Positions 30,082 to 40,057 of a stretch of DNA of 64,000 nt are shown one piece after another. The notes under the pieces are model-generated. The model saw nothing but the letters and a program-made list of their open reading frames with translations. It was not told the DNA's origin and ran no database searches. The first letter of the stretch is position 1, and the number at the start of each line of letters is the position of its first letter. The stretch spans positions 496,001 to 560,000 of the forward strand of contig NZ_SMFQ01000003.1 of NCBI RefSeq assembly GCF_004339015.1, written 5' to 3'. Made by a program: the position numbers and the translations under genes. The stretch comes from Cocleimonas flava. GTDB lineage: Bacteria > Pseudomonadota > Gammaproteobacteria > Thiotrichales > Thiotrichaceae.

Positions 30082-30717
30082 ATGAAATTAGGGGCAAAAT
30101 TTTTAGCATTAGTTGCGTGCTATTTCCTTACAACCAGTAATGGTTTTTCTCAAGGTAGTTCGACTGTACACGATATTAAGCGTGTCGCATTCTCTTTAAA
30201 TTTAGTCGATGCCGCACTTGAACGTCTAAAACACAGAGTTAGATACGACGGACGTTATGTTGCAATACCTTTTCCCTGGGGTGATGTGCCTAAAAATATT
30301 GGCGTGTGTACCGATGTCGTGGTTCGTGCATATAGAAAGTTAGGTATCGATTTACAAGAACGCGTTTTTCACGATATGCGTCAAAGCTTCTCTCAATATC
30401 CTAACTTACCAAAATGGAATCGAGTACAAGCCGATCCGAATATCGATCACCGCAGAGTGCTTAACTTACGTGTTTTCTTTGCGCGTAACGGCTCGGCATT
30501 ACCGATTACAAATAGAGCTAACGATTACTTACCCGGCGATTTAGTCACATGGGACATTATGCCTGGTATGCCGCATATCGGTATCGTCACCAATAAAGTG
30601 AGCTACGATAAAAAAAGACCCTTAATTGTTCACAACATAGGTAAAGGTCCAAAACTCGAAGATGTGCTGTTTACTATGAAGATTACCGGTCACTATCGCT
30701 ACCAGCCTGATTTATAA
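30082..30717 (+). CDS. DUF1287 exported protein
   Basis: 211 residues with a signal peptide (KFLALVACYFLTTSNGFSQG). The VCTDVVVRAYRKLGIDLQ and NDYLPGDLVTWDI...PHIGIV...IVHNIG pattern matches DUF1287, which looks like an NlpC/P60-type fold with a cysteine and histidine pair. Biological role unknown; a cell-wall hydrolase is possible. A hairpin lies behind it. Confidence 0.8.
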   Translation: MKLGAKFLALVACYFLTTSNGFSQGSSTVHDIKRVAFSLNLVDAALERLKHRVRYDGRYVAIPFPWGDVPKNIGVCTDVVVRAYRKLGIDLQERVFHDMRQSFSQYPNLPKWNRVQADPNIDHRRVLNLRVFFARNGSALPITNRANDYLPGDLVTWDIMPGMPHIGIVTNKVSYDKKRPLIVHNIGKGPKLEDVLFTMKITGHYRYQPDL

Positions 30718-31299: not shown

Positions 31300-31983
31300 A
31301 TGAGAGTACTGGTTGTCGAAGATGATGCAGATATTCGTGAACAACTCATCGACACATTGCAAGGGGAAGGCTATGTGGTTGATGCAGCAGCGGAAGGTTC
31401 TCAAGGTTTATATTACGCACTAGAATACCCAATTGATATCGCGATCGTAGACTTGGGTCTTCCTGAAGTTAGTGGATTGGATATCATCAAACAATTACGT
31501 GATGCCGGAAAAGATTATCCGGTAATTATTCTTACCGCACGTACACGCTGGCAAAACCGCGTTGAAGGCTTAGAGGCCGGCGCCGATGATTATGTCGATA
31601 AGCCATTTCATCACGAAGAATTATTAGCACGCATGCGCGCCCTACTTCGCCGCACTGGCAGATGGTCTCAGGCTGAATTTTCTTGCGGTCCAATTCGTTT
31701 AAATACTTCTGAGCAACGCGTTTTAGTTCATGATGAAGAAATTTCTCTGACTGCTTATGAATACAAAGTCATAGAGCACCTGATGATGCATGCAGGTGAA
31801 GTCATCTCAAAAACTGATTTAACAGAAAGCATGTATGATGACGAATCAGACAGAGACAGTAATGTTATTGAAGTATTTATTCGTCGCTTAAGAATGAAAC
31901 TTGACCCTGATGGATCAATCAATCCAATCGAGACATTACGTGGTCGCGGCTACCGCTTCACACTCACTCGCAACAATAACTAA
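31300..31983 (+). CDS. OmpR/PhoP-type response regulator
   Basis: 227 residues: receiver domain (phospho-acceptor about D51 in IAIVDLGLPE, lysine in DDYVDKPFH) and OmpR winged helix (about 130-225, LTAYEYKVIEHLM and VIEVFIRRLRMKL). Followed after 21 bp by the sensor kinase gene, a standard pair. PhoP-like by sequence style; the regulon is unknown. Confidence 0.85.
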   Translation: MRVLVVEDDADIREQLIDTLQGEGYVVDAAAEGSQGLYYALEYPIDIAIVDLGLPEVSGLDIIKQLRDAGKDYPVIILTARTRWQNRVEGLEAGADDYVDKPFHHEELLARMRALLRRTGRWSQAEFSCGPIRLNTSEQRVLVHDEEISLTAYEYKVIEHLMMHAGEVISKTDLTESMYDDESDRDSNVIEVFIRRLRMKLDPDGSINPIETLRGRGYRFTLTRNNN

Positions 31984-32004: not shown

Positions 32005-33417
32005 ATGAGTTCTCTTCGTAGCCGGCAATTCCTAAGTGCCCTAGCCATTATATTCCTGGGCATTCTGCTTTTAGGAAGTGTTTTATATTATGTCACACAA
32101 CATAAGATGCTTAAGGACGAAGAGTCTTCATTAAGTGAAGCTGGCCTTGAATTAATGGGCTTCATGGATTTCCATGACGGTAAATTCGTTATTGATAACA
32201 GCTCTAAAAACGATTTCCTTGCTTTCTTGACTAGAAATAATTTCAGCAAATTAAGCTCGGAAAAGTTTGCCTATATACAACACACTGAGACCGGAAATAT
32301 TGTCTGGCACAGCCAATACCCTTTCAATGACATCAGCGCAGGCCGTTTCGCCAAAGATAAACGAAAAGTTTTCACCACTTTCTTATTGAATATGCCTGCA
32401 GAAGTTGAAGGGGTTGATATTCTCAACCCAGAAGATACGCAAGGCAGAAACGTCTCCAAGCTTGACGGCGCAGAAAACTACATTGTTTATGCACGTGGAT
32501 TCAATTACAAACCAAACGGGGCCTATCAGCTTATTTTAGCCAAATCTGCTGAAACCTTACAAAAAGGTCACGATGAGATTATTCGTAATATTTTATTGCT
32601 CTTCCTTATAACTACTATTCTGGTTTTAATCTCGCAGCTTGTCAGTAGCTATCTGGTAATCACACCAATTAGAAAGTTTGAACAAGAGATCAACAAGATT
32701 GAGTCTGGTGAACAGCAACTTATCAGCAAAGAATACCCTACTGAGCTTTCGGCAGTAAAAAGTGCGGTAAACGCATTAATAAACGCAGAAAAAGGCCAGA
32801 AACAACGCTACCGCGACGCACTTGATGATCTTGCCCACAGCCTTAAAACACCACTCTCAGTTCTTCAAAGCTCCGCAGAGAAAAGTCACAATGACACTAT
32901 TCGTACCCAGGTTGAACGCATGGATGACATTATTGCCTATCAACTTAGGCGTGCAGTTGTTAATGAGCACGGTGGTACCATCATCAAACAACAAGCTGTC
33001 AGACCAGTGCTCTACCGATTAAAAGAGTCTTTAATCAAGGTATACCGAGACAAACCTTTTGAATTTGTTATCAATGTAGATGATTTCTCAAAATGCCGCA
33101 TGGAAGAAGACGACATGATGGAGGTTTTTGGCAACCTCGCGAATAACGCCTGCCGCTTCTGTGAAAAAATTGTTGAGATAACGGGCACACAGAACGGTGA
33201 CACATTGATTATTGATATCGATGATGATGGCCTTGGCTTTCCCGACAAAAACCCTTCTGAGCTATTACAGCGCGGAATTCGAGCAGATAGCCAATCAGAA
33301 GGACAAGGCATTGGCTTAGCTGTAAGTACTGAAATAGTCGAAGCCATTGGCGGTAAGATAGAATTACTGATATCGCCCTATGTAGGCGCCAGAGTCAGAT
33401 TACATTTACCCATGTAA
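32005..33417 (+). CDS. PhoQ-like sensor histidine kinase
   Basis: 470 residues: first helix near 10-30, a periplasmic sensor of about 150 residues, second helix near 195-215, HAMP-like linker, then a kinase core with the phospho-histidine about H278 in DDLAHSLKTPLSVLQ and ATP-binding N-box (EVFGNLANNACRFC) and G-boxes (DIDDDGLGFP, GQGIGLAVS). The short H-box style is that of PhoQ relatives. Signal not visible from sequence. Confidence 0.85.
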   Translation: MSSLRSRQFLSALAIIFLGILLLGSVLYYVTQHKMLKDEESSLSEAGLELMGFMDFHDGKFVIDNSSKNDFLAFLTRNNFSKLSSEKFAYIQHTETGNIVWHSQYPFNDISAGRFAKDKRKVFTTFLLNMPAEVEGVDILNPEDTQGRNVSKLDGAENYIVYARGFNYKPNGAYQLILAKSAETLQKGHDEIIRNILLLFLITTILVLISQLVSSYLVITPIRKFEQEINKIESGEQQLISKEYPTELSAVKSAVNALINAEKGQKQRYRDALDDLAHSLKTPLSVLQSSAEKSHNDTIRTQVERMDDIIAYQLRRAVVNEHGGTIIKQQAVRPVLYRLKESLIKVYRDKPFEFVINVDDFSKCRMEEDDMMEVFGNLANNACRFCEKIVEITGTQNGDTLIIDIDDDGLGFPDKNPSELLQRGIRADSQSEGQGIGLAVSTEIVEAIGGKIELLISPYVGARVRLHLPM

Positions 33418-33891: not shown

Positions 33892-33967
33892 TGGCGTCCC
33901 CACGGGGACTCGAACCCCGGTTACCGCCGTGAAAGGGCGGTGTCCTAGGCCACTAGACGATGGGGAC
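33892..33967 (-). tRNA. tRNA-Glu (TTC)
   Basis: 76-base cloverleaf on the minus strand with encoded CCA, acceptor stem GTCCCCA and anticodon loop CTTTCAC. The D-loop reads GTGGCCTAGG, one of two differences from the second copy. Confidence 0.95.
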
Positions 33968-34034
33968 CTTGGATCTATTCAATTTGTAATTCTGTAACAT
34001 TCCTAAAAAGAACCCTACAAAATAGTGTAAAAAA

Positions 34035-34109
34035 TGGCGTCCCCACGGGGACTCGAACCCCGGTTACCGCCGTGAAAGGGCGGTGTCCTAACCACTAGAC
34101 GATGGGGAC
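34035..34109 (-). tRNA. tRNA-Glu (TTC), second copy
   Basis: 75-base minus-strand tRNA with encoded CCA, identical to the neighbouring tRNA-Glu except for the D-loop (GTGGTTAGG), one base shorter. Confidence 0.95.
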
Positions 34110-34165
34110 ACATATTTTCATGTGCTTAATCTAAAATAGACAAGAGCTAATTCAGATTAAAGACG

Positions 34166-34438
34166 CTACTTTTTTACATTTGGATCTAACACATCTTCGT
34201 GTAAATCCTGCAATGACCTTTTCTTATTAAGTTCAGAATCATCACGGGGCGAGAACATAACAGAAGTTGCCAGACCAGTAAATAAAAAAACGAAACCAGT
34301 TGGTACAGCCATCAAAAATCTCATTGCCCATTTATCATTCCCCTGAAACATAAAGGTAAAACCTACTATGAGTCCGACGACGGCTAATACTAAACCGATG
34401 ATAAATACTACTTGGCCAATGCGTGCAAGTGTTTTCAT
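34166..34438 (-). CDS. small membrane protein of unknown function
   Basis: 90 residues with two hydrophobic helices (VVFIIGLVLAVVGLIVGF and MAVPTGFVFLFTGLATSV) and a charged C-terminus. No family recognised. It sits between tRNA-Ala and tRNA-Glu genes on the same strand. Confidence 0.55.
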   Translation of the reverse strand: MKTLARIGQVVFIIGLVLAVVGLIVGFTFMFQGNDKWAMRFLMAVPTGFVFLFTGLATSVMFSPRDDSELNKKRSLQDLHEDVLDPNVKK

Positions 34439-34522
34439 GATCTAAGTTACTCTCATCTCAATCGACTCTTACTATACATCGAAACTATTACTCTTATGAG
34501 CGACCATTACAAATAAATATAA

Positions 34523-34598
34523 TGGTGGAGCTAGGCGGGATCGAACCGCCGACCTCTGCAATGCCATTGCAGCGCTCTCCCAGCTGAGCTATAGCCCC
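34523..34598 (-). tRNA. tRNA-Ala (GGC)
   Basis: 76-base minus-strand cloverleaf with encoded CCA; acceptor GGGGCTA, anticodon stem-loop CTGCA-ATGGCAT-TGCAG, T-loop GTTCGATCC. Confidence 0.95.
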
Positions 34599-34902: not shown

Positions 34903-37584
34903 ATGAATTACCTATCAAAGAAACTGAAACCTAAAAAACTTCAGAGAGCAGGAATAATCGGGCTATTATTTATTCTACAATGCACTATTTTTACGCATTA
35001 TAGTTACGCTGGTCCCAATACACGTTCACCTTTAGGGGTGAATAGTAATGAGGTCATGGATGATGACGCCAGTATTCCGTTTATAGACGTCTTTAAAACA
35101 TCCATTCCCTTTGAAGAAGCACGCCCCTGGCTCACAAAAGGAAAAGTAGAATACGACGAACATGGCTGGCCAAAAAATCTAAATGGCGGTAAGGCAGGCA
35201 CTCGCTTCTTATATAAACTACCTAAAGAAACCGTACCAGAAGGAAATTATACCGTCCTATATGATGGAGAAGGCATTCTTAGTTACAGTGACGATGCCAA
35301 ACTCGTTAGCCGTGAACCCGGAAAAGACATTATTTCTATTCATGCGGGTAAAGACAAAGAATTCCGCGTTAAGTTAATCATCGAAAATAGTAACGCAAAA
35401 AACTATCTACGAAATATTCGTGTACTTATGCCGGGCGGCGTATGTTCGAACAATCCATTCAAACACGTGAAAGATAAACGCTACTGTAAAGGCTCTCGTT
35501 ACCTTGCATTCGAAAACTATCATGAAAGCTTAATCTTTAACCCTGCATACCTTGATTATATGAAGGACTTTAAAGTTGTGCGCTTTATGAATATGTCTGG
35601 TATTACACGTAATCCAATTAGCTCATGGGATGAACGTCCTAAGTTAAAAGATGCGACCTGGGCTGGTAAACAAGGTGTGCGTGGTGCTCCTTTAGAAATC
35701 ATGGTGGCACTGGCAAATCGACTTAATGCAGATCCATGGTTTACACTGCCACACAAGGCCGATAATAATTTCGTTAGACAATATGCGAAATACGTAAAAG
35801 ATAACTTAAAACCAGGCCTCAAAGCCTATGTTGAATATACCAACGAAGCCTGGAACTCTATTTTCACCCAAGCACATTACGTAAAAGATATGGGTGAACG
35901 CATGCAACTTGATGAAGATAGAGATAAAGCGGGTTATAAATACTTCTCGTTACGCTCAGTACAGATTTTCGATATGTGGGAACAAACCTTCGGTGGAACA
36001 GATCGTATTGTTCGCGTTATGGGTAGCTGGACTGGTTGGACTCGACTTTCTGAAATGCTGTTATCTTACAGAAATGCCTATAAAAAGACGGATGCTATAG
36101 CAATAGCGCCCTATTTCTTCCCTAGCTTTAAAAGTGCTCAAAAAGCGCGATCGGTCAGTCAATTATTCAAGTTAATGTATGACCCAAAAGAAAAGTACTC
36201 CATTCCAAAAGTACTAGGATACATTCATAAAAATGCAGAGACAGCCAAGAAATTTGGCGTCGATCTAATCGCCTATGAAGGTGGTCAACATCTTGTGGAC
36301 TGGAAGAGCCGTAATGTAACGTCGCACCCAACCAAATTGATGATTGAAGCCAATAAAGACTGGCGTATGGCAAAGGCATACAGTGTCTTTATGCAGGGCT
36401 GGAGAGATAACGGTGGAAAATTATTCGTCAATTTCTCTGCACCTAGAACTTATCAGTGGTTTGGCAGCTGGGGAACAAAAGAATACATTACACAACCGAT
36501 TAATAAAGCACCTAAGCATCGCGCACTCATGCAATACGCCCGCAAGAACCCTTGTTGGTGGAGAGGTTGTACAAGCCAAACGGTTGCAAGGCTGGATAAA
36601 CCCGCTAATAACCCAGTTGGCGATGTGTATGCACTAGTACCATCCAAGAAAAAGAAAAACGTACCGGGGAAAACACTGGCTAACCCAGCGATGGTAGCAA
36701 AAGCTAAAGCACAAGCGAAACCAGCAGCAAAACCAAAAGTGGTTGCTAAAGCAACTCCGCCTAAAGCAAATACAAATACACCAGCTATTGCCAAAGCTGC
36801 AGTAAAAACAGTTACCACTGCAGCTAAAACAGCCGCATCTGTCAGTAACCCAGCAACAAAAACAACTGCGACCGCTGCGGTGGCTGCCAGTGTAGCAAAA
36901 CCGATTTGGGAGACAGCTACAGCTGCTGCCAAACCAGCGCAAAAAATAGTTACGCCTAAAGCACAAAAGCCAACACCAAAGCTGGCAACAGCAAAACAAG
37001 ATCATGATGCTGTTGTGCATCGTGTAAAGGGACGTGGGCGTTTTTGGAGCAATAAAGCCGCCCTGCACTTAAGAAACATAGTCGATGGACGTATTAATGG
37101 CGGAAGCGATCTCTCCGGCGTATGGCAGACTCATTGGGATAATCAATATCTACATGTTCGTGTAGATGCGCTTGATGATAAATTCATGCGTGATTCACAA
37201 GCACCCTGGGGAGATGATTCCATTGAAATATTCGTCGATGCCGATGGCAGCCGCAATAATAAATTTGATGGAAAAAATGATTTCCACTTTATCTATCGCT
37301 GGAAAGACAGAAACGTAAACCTAAGCAAGAGTTCGCCCAGAAAAAGAACGCTAGGCATCAAGCAAACCATGACTAGAACAGACAAAGGTTACACGCTAGA
37401 AACGTCTATTCCCTGGACAACCTTGGGTGTACGCCCTGTAGCAGGTAGAAACATCGGTATTGATGTACAAATCAATGATGATGACAGTGGCAATGGTCGT
37501 GATGGTAAGCTCGCATGGCACGCTACAAACGATCAGGCATGGAAAAACCCACAAACATTTGGCAAGTTGGTATTAGGCATATAA
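34903..37584 (+). CDS. exported glycosidase-like protein with CBM9-like domain
   Basis: 893 residues. Signal peptide near 16-37; large catalytic-like region (about 40-575) with EYTNEAWN (E311, E315) and YEGGQHLVDW (E459), which look like the acid/base and nucleophile glutamates of a TIM-barrel glycoside hydrolase; a low-complexity Ala/Lys/Pro/Thr linker (about 580-705); and a C-terminal CBM9-like domain (WGDDSIEIFVDADGS, ETSIPWTTLGV). No named family recognised. Followed 52 bp later by a paralogue, so the two probably act on the same polysaccharide. Activity is inferred. Confidence 0.65.
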   Translation: MNYLSKKLKPKKLQRAGIIGLLFILQCTIFTHYSYAGPNTRSPLGVNSNEVMDDDASIPFIDVFKTSIPFEEARPWLTKGKVEYDEHGWPKNLNGGKAGTRFLYKLPKETVPEGNYTVLYDGEGILSYSDDAKLVSREPGKDIISIHAGKDKEFRVKLIIENSNAKNYLRNIRVLMPGGVCSNNPFKHVKDKRYCKGSRYLAFENYHESLIFNPAYLDYMKDFKVVRFMNMSGITRNPISSWDERPKLKDATWAGKQGVRGAPLEIMVALANRLNADPWFTLPHKADNNFVRQYAKYVKDNLKPGLKAYVEYTNEAWNSIFTQAHYVKDMGERMQLDEDRDKAGYKYFSLRSVQIFDMWEQTFGGTDRIVRVMGSWTGWTRLSEMLLSYRNAYKKTDAIAIAPYFFPSFKSAQKARSVSQLFKLMYDPKEKYSIPKVLGYIHKNAETAKKFGVDLIAYEGGQHLVDWKSRNVTSHPTKLMIEANKDWRMAKAYSVFMQGWRDNGGKLFVNFSAPRTYQWFGSWGTKEYITQPINKAPKHRALMQYARKNPCWWRGCTSQTVARLDKPANNPVGDVYALVPSKKKKNVPGKTLANPAMVAKAKAQAKPAAKPKVVAKATPPKANTNTPAIAKAAVKTVTTAAKTAASVSNPATKTTATAAVAASVAKPIWETATAAAKPAQKIVTPKAQKPTPKLATAKQDHDAVVHRVKGRGRFWSNKAALHLRNIVDGRINGGSDLSGVWQTHWDNQYLHVRVDALDDKFMRDSQAPWGDDSIEIFVDADGSRNNKFDGKNDFHFIYRWKDRNVNLSKSSPRKRTLGIKQTMTRTDKGYTLETSIPWTTLGVRPVAGRNIGIDVQINDDDSGNGRDGKLAWHATNDQAWKNPQTFGKLVLGI

Positions 37585-37636
37585 AATGCCTAATACTTAA
37601 AAAGTACCAATCACTTTAACTTCCACTCAAGGCTAA

Positions 37637-40057
37637 ATGCAGAAACTCATCAAGGGCGTATTCCTCCTTGCAATTGTTCTATTAACACTTGCAGCCGGAG
37701 CTTATCTTAATCAGCGCTACCAAAATTATAAGAACTTCAATATGCCCGCCGCAAAACCACCTTCTGCGGAGCAATTAAAATCAGTTCTTAATGCAAAACG
37801 CACTGCAAACGATCTGGATAACAAAACCCAGAAACAACAAGATGTATTTTTGGGAATCAATACAGCAGATGTTAGAGAAGATACTTCCAGCGTTCAGTTT
37901 TTAAATTTATTTAAACCCGCAATCCCTTTTGCAGAAACGGTGCCTTGGGGCAGCAGCAAAGACGTAGAGTATGATAAAAATGGTTACCCGACTGACTTAA
38001 AAGGCGGTAAAGCTGGTACTAAATTTTTAAATAGATTACCTGCCGATACTATTGAAGATGGCTTTTATACCGTCTTATATGACGGAGAAGGAGAAATATT
38101 TTACGGCAATGATGCGCGTTTAGTCGTACACCGCCCCGGCAAAGACGTCATAGAAATCAAAGCTGGCGCTGATAAAACACTCAATGCATCGCTATTCATT
38201 AAAAAAACAACCAAAGACAACTATATTAAAAAAATACGCATTCTACCCGAAGGTGGCATTTGTGATGGCTATCCACATATAAAAGTAAAAATAGAGTCTG
38301 ATTGCAAAAAAGGCGAATTCCTCTCTTTTGAAGAAAATCACGATAAAATATTATTTAACCCTGATTACTTAAACTTCATGAAAGACTTTCAAGTAGTCCG
38401 CTTCATGAATATGTCAGGAATGACACGTAATCCCGTTGAAAAATGGAGTACCAGAAACACATTAGAAAAGGCTACATGGGGTGGTCGTGCTGGACTTTAT
38501 TCTCGCGGTGCGCCTGTTGAAATCATGGTTGCTTTAGCCAATCAAATCAATGCTCATCCCTGGTTTTCAATGCCTTATAAAGCTGATGATGACTACGTTC
38601 GTAAGTTTGGCGAATATGTAAAAGCCAACCTAAATCCAAATTTAAAAGCTTATATCGAATATAGCAATGAAGTATGGAACCCAATCTTCATCCATCACGA
38701 TTATGCTATTGAGAAAGGACTTGAAGAAAAACTGGATACCAGCAAATCACCCGCCGGTTACAAATGGTACTCCAAGAGAAGCGTTGAAGTATTTAAAATA
38801 TGGGAAGATGCTTTTGGTGGTTCACAACAATTGGTACGTGTTTTAGGAAGCTGGGCAAGTAATCAAAACATGTCGAGCCAGATTCTTGCTTATAAAGACG
38901 CCTATAAACACACTGACGCGATTGCAATCGGCCCTTATGTCTCTGCTCACCCAAAAGTATTGCGCAAAGCCAATAACGTGGATGACGTATTTAAAGCAAT
39001 GATGAACAAAACCTCTAAATGGGGTATGAAAACCATTGTTTCCTATATACAGAAACAACAAAAAGTAGCCTCTTCTTTTGGCGTGGATTTGATCGCTTAT
39101 GAGGGCGGACAGCACCTGGTTGATTGGGACACACGCAAAGTAGATCAGCACCCTAACCCATTACTTTATGCCGCCAATCGCGACCCACGTATGGGCATTG
39201 TTTACGATGAATTAATGAGAGAATGGAAGCAGGCAGGAGGAAAGCTATTTGTTGCCTTTAGTGCGCCTAGAATATACAGCTGGTATGGTAGCTGGGGAGT
39301 GAAAGAACACATCAGACAAGCACGTGCTGATGCCCCTAAGTATGATTCTTTATTACGTTATCTGGATAGCAACCTTCATCCAGAAGAAAACCAAAATACC
39401 ACTATTCAAAATGTGATTGACGCAGAACAAACCGAACTGCCTGTTCCGTATGCAAAAAAGCCAGAGTTAATCTGGAATATGCAACAGAGTATGACCATTC
39501 CATCAAAATTATCAGGTGTATCTGCCAGCAACCTGAGCGCTAAATGGCAATCAAACTGGGATACAAAACACTTGTATTTTAGCTTCTCAGTCACTGACAA
39601 TGATATTCAAAAAGGCGACGAAATAATATTAACGCTTGATAACAATGTTGCTAATGAAGAGGTTCAGGCTCCTTCCAAACAGTCTAAATCAAACAAGAAA
39701 ACTGCCGAAGGTGATAAATCTGACGCCGTTTCAAAGTCAGAGTCAAACTCTGAGTCAGAGCCTGTTCCAGAGGAAGAAAAAGCAAAAACATTTACATTCA
39801 CACCATTTGATTCATTAGGTTCTCAAACGCACCTCATACGAACGGATACTGGCTATCAATTAAATGCGGCAATACCCTGGAGTGAAGTCTTTGGCAAGTC
39901 ATCAAAAAAACATGCAAGCAATGGCACCAAAATAGGCGTTAATATTAAAATAGTCGATGTTGACGAGGATATTAAAGGCAGTAAGTCATTACACTGGGCT
40001 GATACCAGCAAAGCATTGCCAAATTTAGTATTAAAAAACACTCCTGTTTCTCAATAG
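37637..40057 (+). CDS. second glycosidase-like protein with CBM9-like domain
   Basis: 806 residues, a paralogue of the preceding protein: same core with EYSNEVWN (E341, E345) and YEGGQHLVDW (E489). It differs by an uncleaved-looking N-terminal membrane anchor (GVFLLAIVLLTLAAGAYL), by lacking the Ala/Lys linker, and by an acidic Ser/Glu insert (SESNSESEPVPEEE) inside the C-terminal CBM9-like domain, which has diverged. Probably membrane-held with the first protein free or periplasmic. Substrate unknown. Confidence 0.65.
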   Translation: MQKLIKGVFLLAIVLLTLAAGAYLNQRYQNYKNFNMPAAKPPSAEQLKSVLNAKRTANDLDNKTQKQQDVFLGINTADVREDTSSVQFLNLFKPAIPFAETVPWGSSKDVEYDKNGYPTDLKGGKAGTKFLNRLPADTIEDGFYTVLYDGEGEIFYGNDARLVVHRPGKDVIEIKAGADKTLNASLFIKKTTKDNYIKKIRILPEGGICDGYPHIKVKIESDCKKGEFLSFEENHDKILFNPDYLNFMKDFQVVRFMNMSGMTRNPVEKWSTRNTLEKATWGGRAGLYSRGAPVEIMVALANQINAHPWFSMPYKADDDYVRKFGEYVKANLNPNLKAYIEYSNEVWNPIFIHHDYAIEKGLEEKLDTSKSPAGYKWYSKRSVEVFKIWEDAFGGSQQLVRVLGSWASNQNMSSQILAYKDAYKHTDAIAIGPYVSAHPKVLRKANNVDDVFKAMMNKTSKWGMKTIVSYIQKQQKVASSFGVDLIAYEGGQHLVDWDTRKVDQHPNPLLYAANRDPRMGIVYDELMREWKQAGGKLFVAFSAPRIYSWYGSWGVKEHIRQARADAPKYDSLLRYLDSNLHPEENQNTTIQNVIDAEQTELPVPYAKKPELIWNMQQSMTIPSKLSGVSASNLSAKWQSNWDTKHLYFSFSVTDNDIQKGDEIILTLDNNVANEEVQAPSKQSKSNKKTAEGDKSDAVSKSESNSESEPVPEEEKAKTFTFTPFDSLGSQTHLIRTDTGYQLNAAIPWSEVFGKSSKKHASNGTKIGVNIKIVDVDEDIKGSKSLHWADTSKALPNLVLKNTPVSQ

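Follow-up and report, generated by a model that had tools for sequence, protein, structure and literature searches.

Two adjacent genes in the genome of Cocleimonas flava raise the question of what a sulfur bacterium does with large, related proteins that look like glycosidases and belong to no named family. They lie in a window of 64,000 nucleotides, the whole stretch of DNA analysed here, whose positions are used below (plus strand unless stated otherwise). P1 (34903..37584, 893 aa; ORF list, alignment and model) and P2 (37637..40057, 806 aa; ORF list and alignment) are intact, on the same strand and 52 bp apart, and their cores are about 49% identical across the common stretch of about 520 residues; the two paralogues of more than 800 residues reported in an earlier note on this DNA are hence real open reading frames. 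On balance, the probable answer is that P1 and P2 are retaining glycosidases of an unnamed clan GH-A-type family, trimming matrix polysaccharide made by the producer itself.

P1 is a predicted secreted protein. Sequence reading and hydropathy place a signal peptide at residues 1-36, ending SYA/GP (34903..35010), followed by the core (35014..36582), an Ala/Lys/Pro-rich linker recognised by sequence reading (36670..37041) and a C-terminal CBM9 domain (37042..37575). P2 starts with a more hydrophobic segment (37646..37702; mean Kyte-Doolittle-type hydropathy, KD, 2.36 over 19 residues) that has no obvious cleavage site and is predicted to be a membrane anchor; the distinction between a secreted and a membrane-held protein, drawn in the earlier note, is therefore plausible. 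Compared with close relatives, both cores evolve under strongly purifying selection (dN/dS 0.017-0.037, dS being almost saturated), and the nearest public record to the P1 core among the matches listed is from an uncultured Cocleimonas (97% identity).

Structure prediction, which the earlier note had proposed as a check, yields a high-confidence barrel closest to clan GH-A. The AlphaFold2 model of the P1 core, built with 57 homologues (pLDDT 93, pTM 0.92), has eight barrel strands, at residues 14-17, 195-197, 247-252, 278-282, 339-344, 368-371, 424-427 and 476-480 in model numbering. Between strands 1 and 2 a many-stranded beta-sandwich of about 120 residues is inserted (model residues ~50-168; P1 residues 79-198, 35137..35496), itself modelled alone with a pLDDT of 94, and R197 of the model ends strand 2. 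Directly after strand 4 stands the pair N284-E285, and directly after strand 7 stands E429 (model numbering), so that the model combines a (beta/alpha)8 barrel with an Asn-preceded Glu ending strand 4 and a Glu ending strand 7; the assignment of these residues to the clan GH-A arrangement is well supported by the model. In a structure comparison of the predicted model, 957 of 998 chains reach Z 8 and clan GH-A enzymes fill the top rows. The closest neighbour is GH51 (Z 25.3, rmsd 3.2, 298 residues, 9% identity), followed by GH79 (Z 23.4), GH5 (21.0), GH39 (20.8) and a GH30-type glucocerebrosidase (20.3). Foldseek E-values for the core are weaker (best 1.3e-07) and its TM-scores modest, as expected from an insert that breaks the alignment. 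The isolated beta-sandwich resembles no family convincingly, its best Z of 5.3, to a mixture of CBM and other sandwiches, being below the level that the tool treats as meaningful.

The predicted active site is carried by two motifs. In P1 these are EYTNEAWN (35833..35856; E311, N314, E315 as predicted acid/base, W317 and N318, from alignment and model) and YEGGQH (36274..36291), whose E459, directly after strand 7, is the predicted nucleophile; in P2 they are EYSNEVWN (38657..38680; E341 and E345, the latter the predicted acid/base) and YEGGQH (39098..39115; E489, predicted nucleophile), these glutamates standing in invariant alignment columns. E311, N314-E315, W317-N318 and E459 do not vary across the ten paralogues of the genome (see below) or among the 57 homologues, and the two glutamates predicted to be catalytic are equally invariant in the 19 alphaproteobacterial proteins, as they are in copies from phages and cyanobacteria. 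The residues singled out in the earlier note (E311, E315 and E459) were exactly placed, with E341, E345 and E489 as their P2 counterparts, and the glycosidase-like glutamates it had recognised do come to lie where strands 4 and 7 end. Its inclusion of E311 among them is the part to be revised: E311 lies within strand 4, four positions ahead of the predicted acid/base, where other clan GH-A families also have a Glu, and in the light of the model it is more plausibly a structural residue of that strand than a member of the catalytic pair. The barrel fold and the catalytic glutamate pair are well supported; a glycosidase activity, and a polysaccharide as its substrate, would be in keeping with them.

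Does the family have a name elsewhere? The P1/P2 core has no Pfam match even at E up to 10, the 57-member set has none in Pfam, NCBIfam or PDB sequences, and no PHROGs family matches the core. Searching PDB sequences with a profile returned no relative, the reach of that search being confined to families of solved structure. An NCBIfam methyltransferase match to one member (E 0.0005 to 0.001, cut-off 243 bits) was dismissed as noise. The Pfam model of the arabinofuranosidase C-terminal domain associated with GH51 hits none of the 57 members at E up to 1 and neither full-length P1 nor P2 at E up to 10; likewise, Pfam Glyco_hydro_39 matches none of the 57 members nor the two full-length proteins. 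With GH51 alpha-L-arabinofuranosidases (e.g. PDB 1pz3) the P1/P2 family has in common the barrel topology, the strand-4 Asn-Glu and the strand-7 Glu; unlike them, it has no sequence-profile match, carries a sandwich inserted after strand 1, and continues into a linker and a CBM9. A literature search found no paper naming the family and no activity of any member. Consistent with the earlier note, which had recognised no hydrolase family, none was found in Pfam, NCBIfam or PHROGs, nor any solved relative by sequence; a match to a known non-enzymatic family and a loss of the barrel in the model were both looked for, and neither was seen. The family, of which at least 572 members were confirmed, is likely a new glycoside hydrolase family as judged against Pfam, NCBIfam, PHROGs and PDB, CAZy holding also families that have no Pfam model.

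The CBM9-like C-terminus that had been noted on each protein is strong in P1 and diverged in P2. In P1, Pfam CBM9_1 (PF06452) covers residues 714-891 with E 2.5e-41 (142 bits, cut-off 23.4), and the domain can be aligned across 176 residues with the CBM9 of Thermotoga maritima Xyn10A (PDB 1i82), both sugar-sandwiching Trp positions of which are retained, as an alignment that included orthologues also indicated. The P2 domain (residues 612-791, 39470..40009; E 3e-10, 40.8 bits) is above the Pfam cut-off and yet diverged: relative to 1i82 it has lost both Trp positions, as have all five P2 orthologues checked, and has gained a charged insert. The P1 tail is therefore predicted to bind glycan and the P2 tail not to. 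The insert that interrupts the degenerate CBM9 of P2 is of low complexity (39641-39781), and such charged inserts are hugely expanded in a 1190-residue paralogue (L013:5399-8968, minus strand), where one is found also within the core domain.

P1 and P2 had been described as a pair; they are not an isolated one but two of ten paralogues, spread over four contigs of the Cocleimonas genome, in a widespread family. The anchors of the ten differ, comprising signal peptides, N-terminal hydrophobic segments and one apparent lipoprotein. In the family tree P1 and P2 belong to separate, well-supported orthologous clades, and the closest paralogue of P2 is not P1 but the 1190-residue protein just mentioned (C2:206865). 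In seven of the loci that were fetched, copies stand side by side in tandem, separated by 40-248 bp, and the tandem pairs covered by the tree fall into the same two clades as P1 and P2, which makes the arrangement old rather than a fresh duplication. The most diverged paralogue (L017:4991-8191, 1066 aa) still has the motifs, but with insertions totalling several hundred residues between elements of the core, and lies upstream of AprB/AprA-like sulfur-metabolism genes.

All 63 sampled genomes of the order Thiotrichales, from eight genera, encode the family, with 3-15 matches each. Outside the order its occurrence is patchy: it is found in 10 of 274 genomes of Gammaproteobacteria overall and in 13 of 398 sampled across the phylum, where most of the carriers belong to one family, the alphaproteobacterial f214 described below. 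CBM9 is present in 37 of 49 full-length Thiotrichaceae members. A contig labelled as an Aquificaceae MAG (L046) falls firmly within the Thiotrichaceae part of the tree and is probably mis-binned. Among the Alphaproteobacteria, one family (f214) encodes it in 55 of 149 genomes (37%), usually as a single copy; since its members cluster with a copy from a Sulfitobacter plasmid, the sequences suggest that f214 corresponds to Rhodobacteraceae sensu lato. Further copies reside on plasmids from Roseobacter, Paracoccus, Thioclava, Shinella, Rhizobium and a cyanobacterium.

It is in the Alphaproteobacteria that the genomic context is most telling. With a query set of 31 exopolysaccharide proteins, taken from annotated plasmid neighbourhoods of the same gene family, the ORFs around 20 f214 members were compared with those of a 20-kb control stretch of the same contig, at a distance of about 90-100 kb, the set being the same for both. 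Near the members, 70 of 237 ORFs are exopolysaccharide-like, with at least one in 18 of 20 regions, against 2 of 320 far from them, in one region of 20 (Fisher p 1e-26); the matching classes are glycosyltransferases, flippases, sugar transferases, Wzz and CpsD. The plasmid copies, too, adjoin in most cases glycosyltransferases, flippases, Wzz, CpsD, Wza and nucleotide-sugar dehydrogenases, Paracoccus liaowanqingii and Pseudoalteromonas being the exceptions. Location in an exopolysaccharide cluster is thus a feature of the alphaproteobacterial homologues and not of the P1/P2 locus or its paralogues: by the same test, 7 of 390 neighbouring ORFs are exopolysaccharide-like in Thiotrichaceae, and 1 of 78 around the paralogues of the Cocleimonas genome. 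In Thiotrichaceae the genes are scattered outside such clusters, so that the substrate proposed here is carried over from the alphaproteobacterial context. The Cocleimonas genome has two Wza-like export genes; it has no BcsB match, which makes a Bcs-type cellulose system, and with it cellulose as the substrate, unlikely.

Domain fusions differ between lineages. RTX repeats are present in 10 of 19 alphaproteobacterial members, and a plasmid protein of Paracoccus marcusii (L096:5471-12379, 2302 residues) combines a GH16 domain, 14 RTX stretches and the family barrel domain; its start, with a GHSL motif, is SGNH-like in look. Several other alphaproteobacterial members (L190-L205) have an N-terminal domain of about 300 residues with GNSL and DxxH motifs that resembles an SGNH esterase and possibly deacylates the same polysaccharide, a motif-based reading for which Pfam and PDB searches gave no confirming match.

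The immediate surroundings of the pair are less informative. Upstream lie genes for an OmpR-type response regulator (31300..31983; Pfam Response_reg and Trans_reg_C) and a sensor histidine kinase (32005..33417; Pfam HATPase_c), which precede the pair in most close relatives with enough upstream DNA; farther upstream, a DUF1287 protein (30082-30717) is syntenic in several of them. Three tRNA genes (Glu, Glu, Ala; 33892..34598, minus strand), a block found also in relatives, separate the two-component genes from P1. A common operon was rejected on this ground, for with opposite-strand tRNA genes in between the two-component genes and P1 are unlikely to be co-transcribed, and the conserved gene order is weak evidence for two-component regulation of the pair. 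A promoter scan was uninformative (20 sites, 19.9 expected).

Could P1 and P2 instead serve feeding, by breaking down external polysaccharides such as the glycans of algae or of animal mucus? Algae and invertebrates are habitats of Cocleimonas relatives, and xylanases that degrade plant polysaccharides also carry CBM9 domains; a secretion signal together with a functional-looking CBM9 similar to that of the Thermotoga xylanase, and the many family copies per genome, would suit such a role. Against it, neither sugar-uptake nor SusCD-like genes stand beside P1 and P2 within the window, no uptake system, sulfatase or degradation genes adjoin the pair there or in a partial survey of relatives, P2 is membrane-held and its CBM9 degenerate, members in other bacteria are embedded in biosynthesis clusters, and the family is in every sampled genome of the order. 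Foraging is accordingly regarded as unlikely. The universal, multi-copy presence in the order and the homologues within slime-building clusters argue that the target is probably the cell's own coat and not food.

Two further explanations concern what the barrel does. Retaining clan GH-A enzymes are capable of transglycosylation, and the same fold and residues might cut matrix chains and re-join them, building or cross-linking a sheath or coat with no hydrolysis; a multi-copy family universal in an order that includes the sheathed filamentous Thiothrix would be apt for it, but sequence and model read the same for hydrolysis, and this option is considered rather improbable. Least probable is that P1 and P2 are lectin-like or structural matrix proteins with the barrel as a mere scaffold: the family has no characterised enzyme, and the beta-sandwich insert and CBM9 do suggest contact with carbohydrate, but the two glutamates predicted to be catalytic, the Asn just ahead of the acid/base and a set of residues at the barrel mouth are invariant across lineages, unlike in decayed barrels.

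Hydrolytic trimming of a self-made polysaccharide, the reading preferred here, has parallels elsewhere. ExoK and ExsH are GH16 enzymes with a beta-jelly-roll fold, unlike the barrel of the P1/P2 family. These glycanases of Sinorhizobium meliloti cut the producer's own exopolysaccharide (PMC4916376), and the RTX-fused alphaproteobacterial members, including the one GH16 and RTX fusion, resemble them. PslG of Pseudomonas aeruginosa, whose gene lies in the psl biosynthesis cluster and which is a retaining endo-beta-glucosidase (PMC11912335), is a working analogue, as a glycosidase within an exopolysaccharide gene cluster, GH39 being among the structural neighbours of the family; unlike PslG, the P1/P2 family has no Glyco_hydro_39 match, bears other accessory domains, and in Cocleimonas is present in ten copies away from polysaccharide clusters.

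Members of the family are also carried by viral metagenome contigs, while searches of INPHARED phages and of the PHROGs model library gave none. One such member (L104:5908-7461) has a lipoprotein-type signal (LASC), which makes a surface-anchored enzyme likely, and lies between genes for a head-tail adaptor (phrog_332) and a major head protein (phrog_212). In another set of viral contigs (L106:5968-7461 and its equivalents in L112 and L113) a secreted-looking member of 497 residues, with intact catalytic motifs, stands beside SbcC/SbcD-like genes.

In the mechanism that these data suggest, P1 and P2 would act outside the cytoplasm on a self-made polysaccharide, be it slime, coat, sheath or adhesive, and would cleave it by two-step retaining (double-displacement) catalysis, with E459 or E489 as the nucleophile and E315 or E345 as the acid/base. 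Chains would be trimmed while they are exported, as filaments grow, or when cells leave a surface. P1, once secreted, would be kept on its polymer by a CBM9 presumed functional; P2 would stay at the inner membrane, facing the periplasm, its CBM9 having degenerated and being probably non-binding. A division of labour of this sort may apply more generally, the ten paralogues probably serving different places or different matrix bonds. The family, its fold, its invariant residues, its distribution and its exopolysaccharide setting in Alphaproteobacteria are computed results, from which catalysis, retention of configuration, a self-made substrate and the division of labour are inferred. The same holds for the polysaccharide-processing role that the earlier note had surmised, and the context favours a matrix of the cell's own making over polysaccharides taken as food from the sea.

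A broader reading, more tentative than the one above and somewhat short of an even chance, is that a new clan GH-A family constitutes a Thiotrichales-wide toolkit for remodelling the polysaccharide of the cell's own sheath, coat or holdfast, members of which phages have taken up as secreted or lipoprotein enzymes that cut the matrix. Its weakest step is the tie to the sheaths or holdfasts of Thiotrichales. The sheath of Thiothrix has been described as multilayered, its structure being then unknown (PMC3368414); a literature search on sheath chemistry in the order found nothing.

To sum up, a family that every sampled genome of one sulfur-bacterial order contains, and that is common in the exopolysaccharide loci of marine Alphaproteobacteria, carries no name in any library searched here. 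It may offer a direct handle on how sulfur bacteria shape their sheaths, rosettes and biofilms, as well as candidate enzymes for cutting bacterial matrix polysaccharides.
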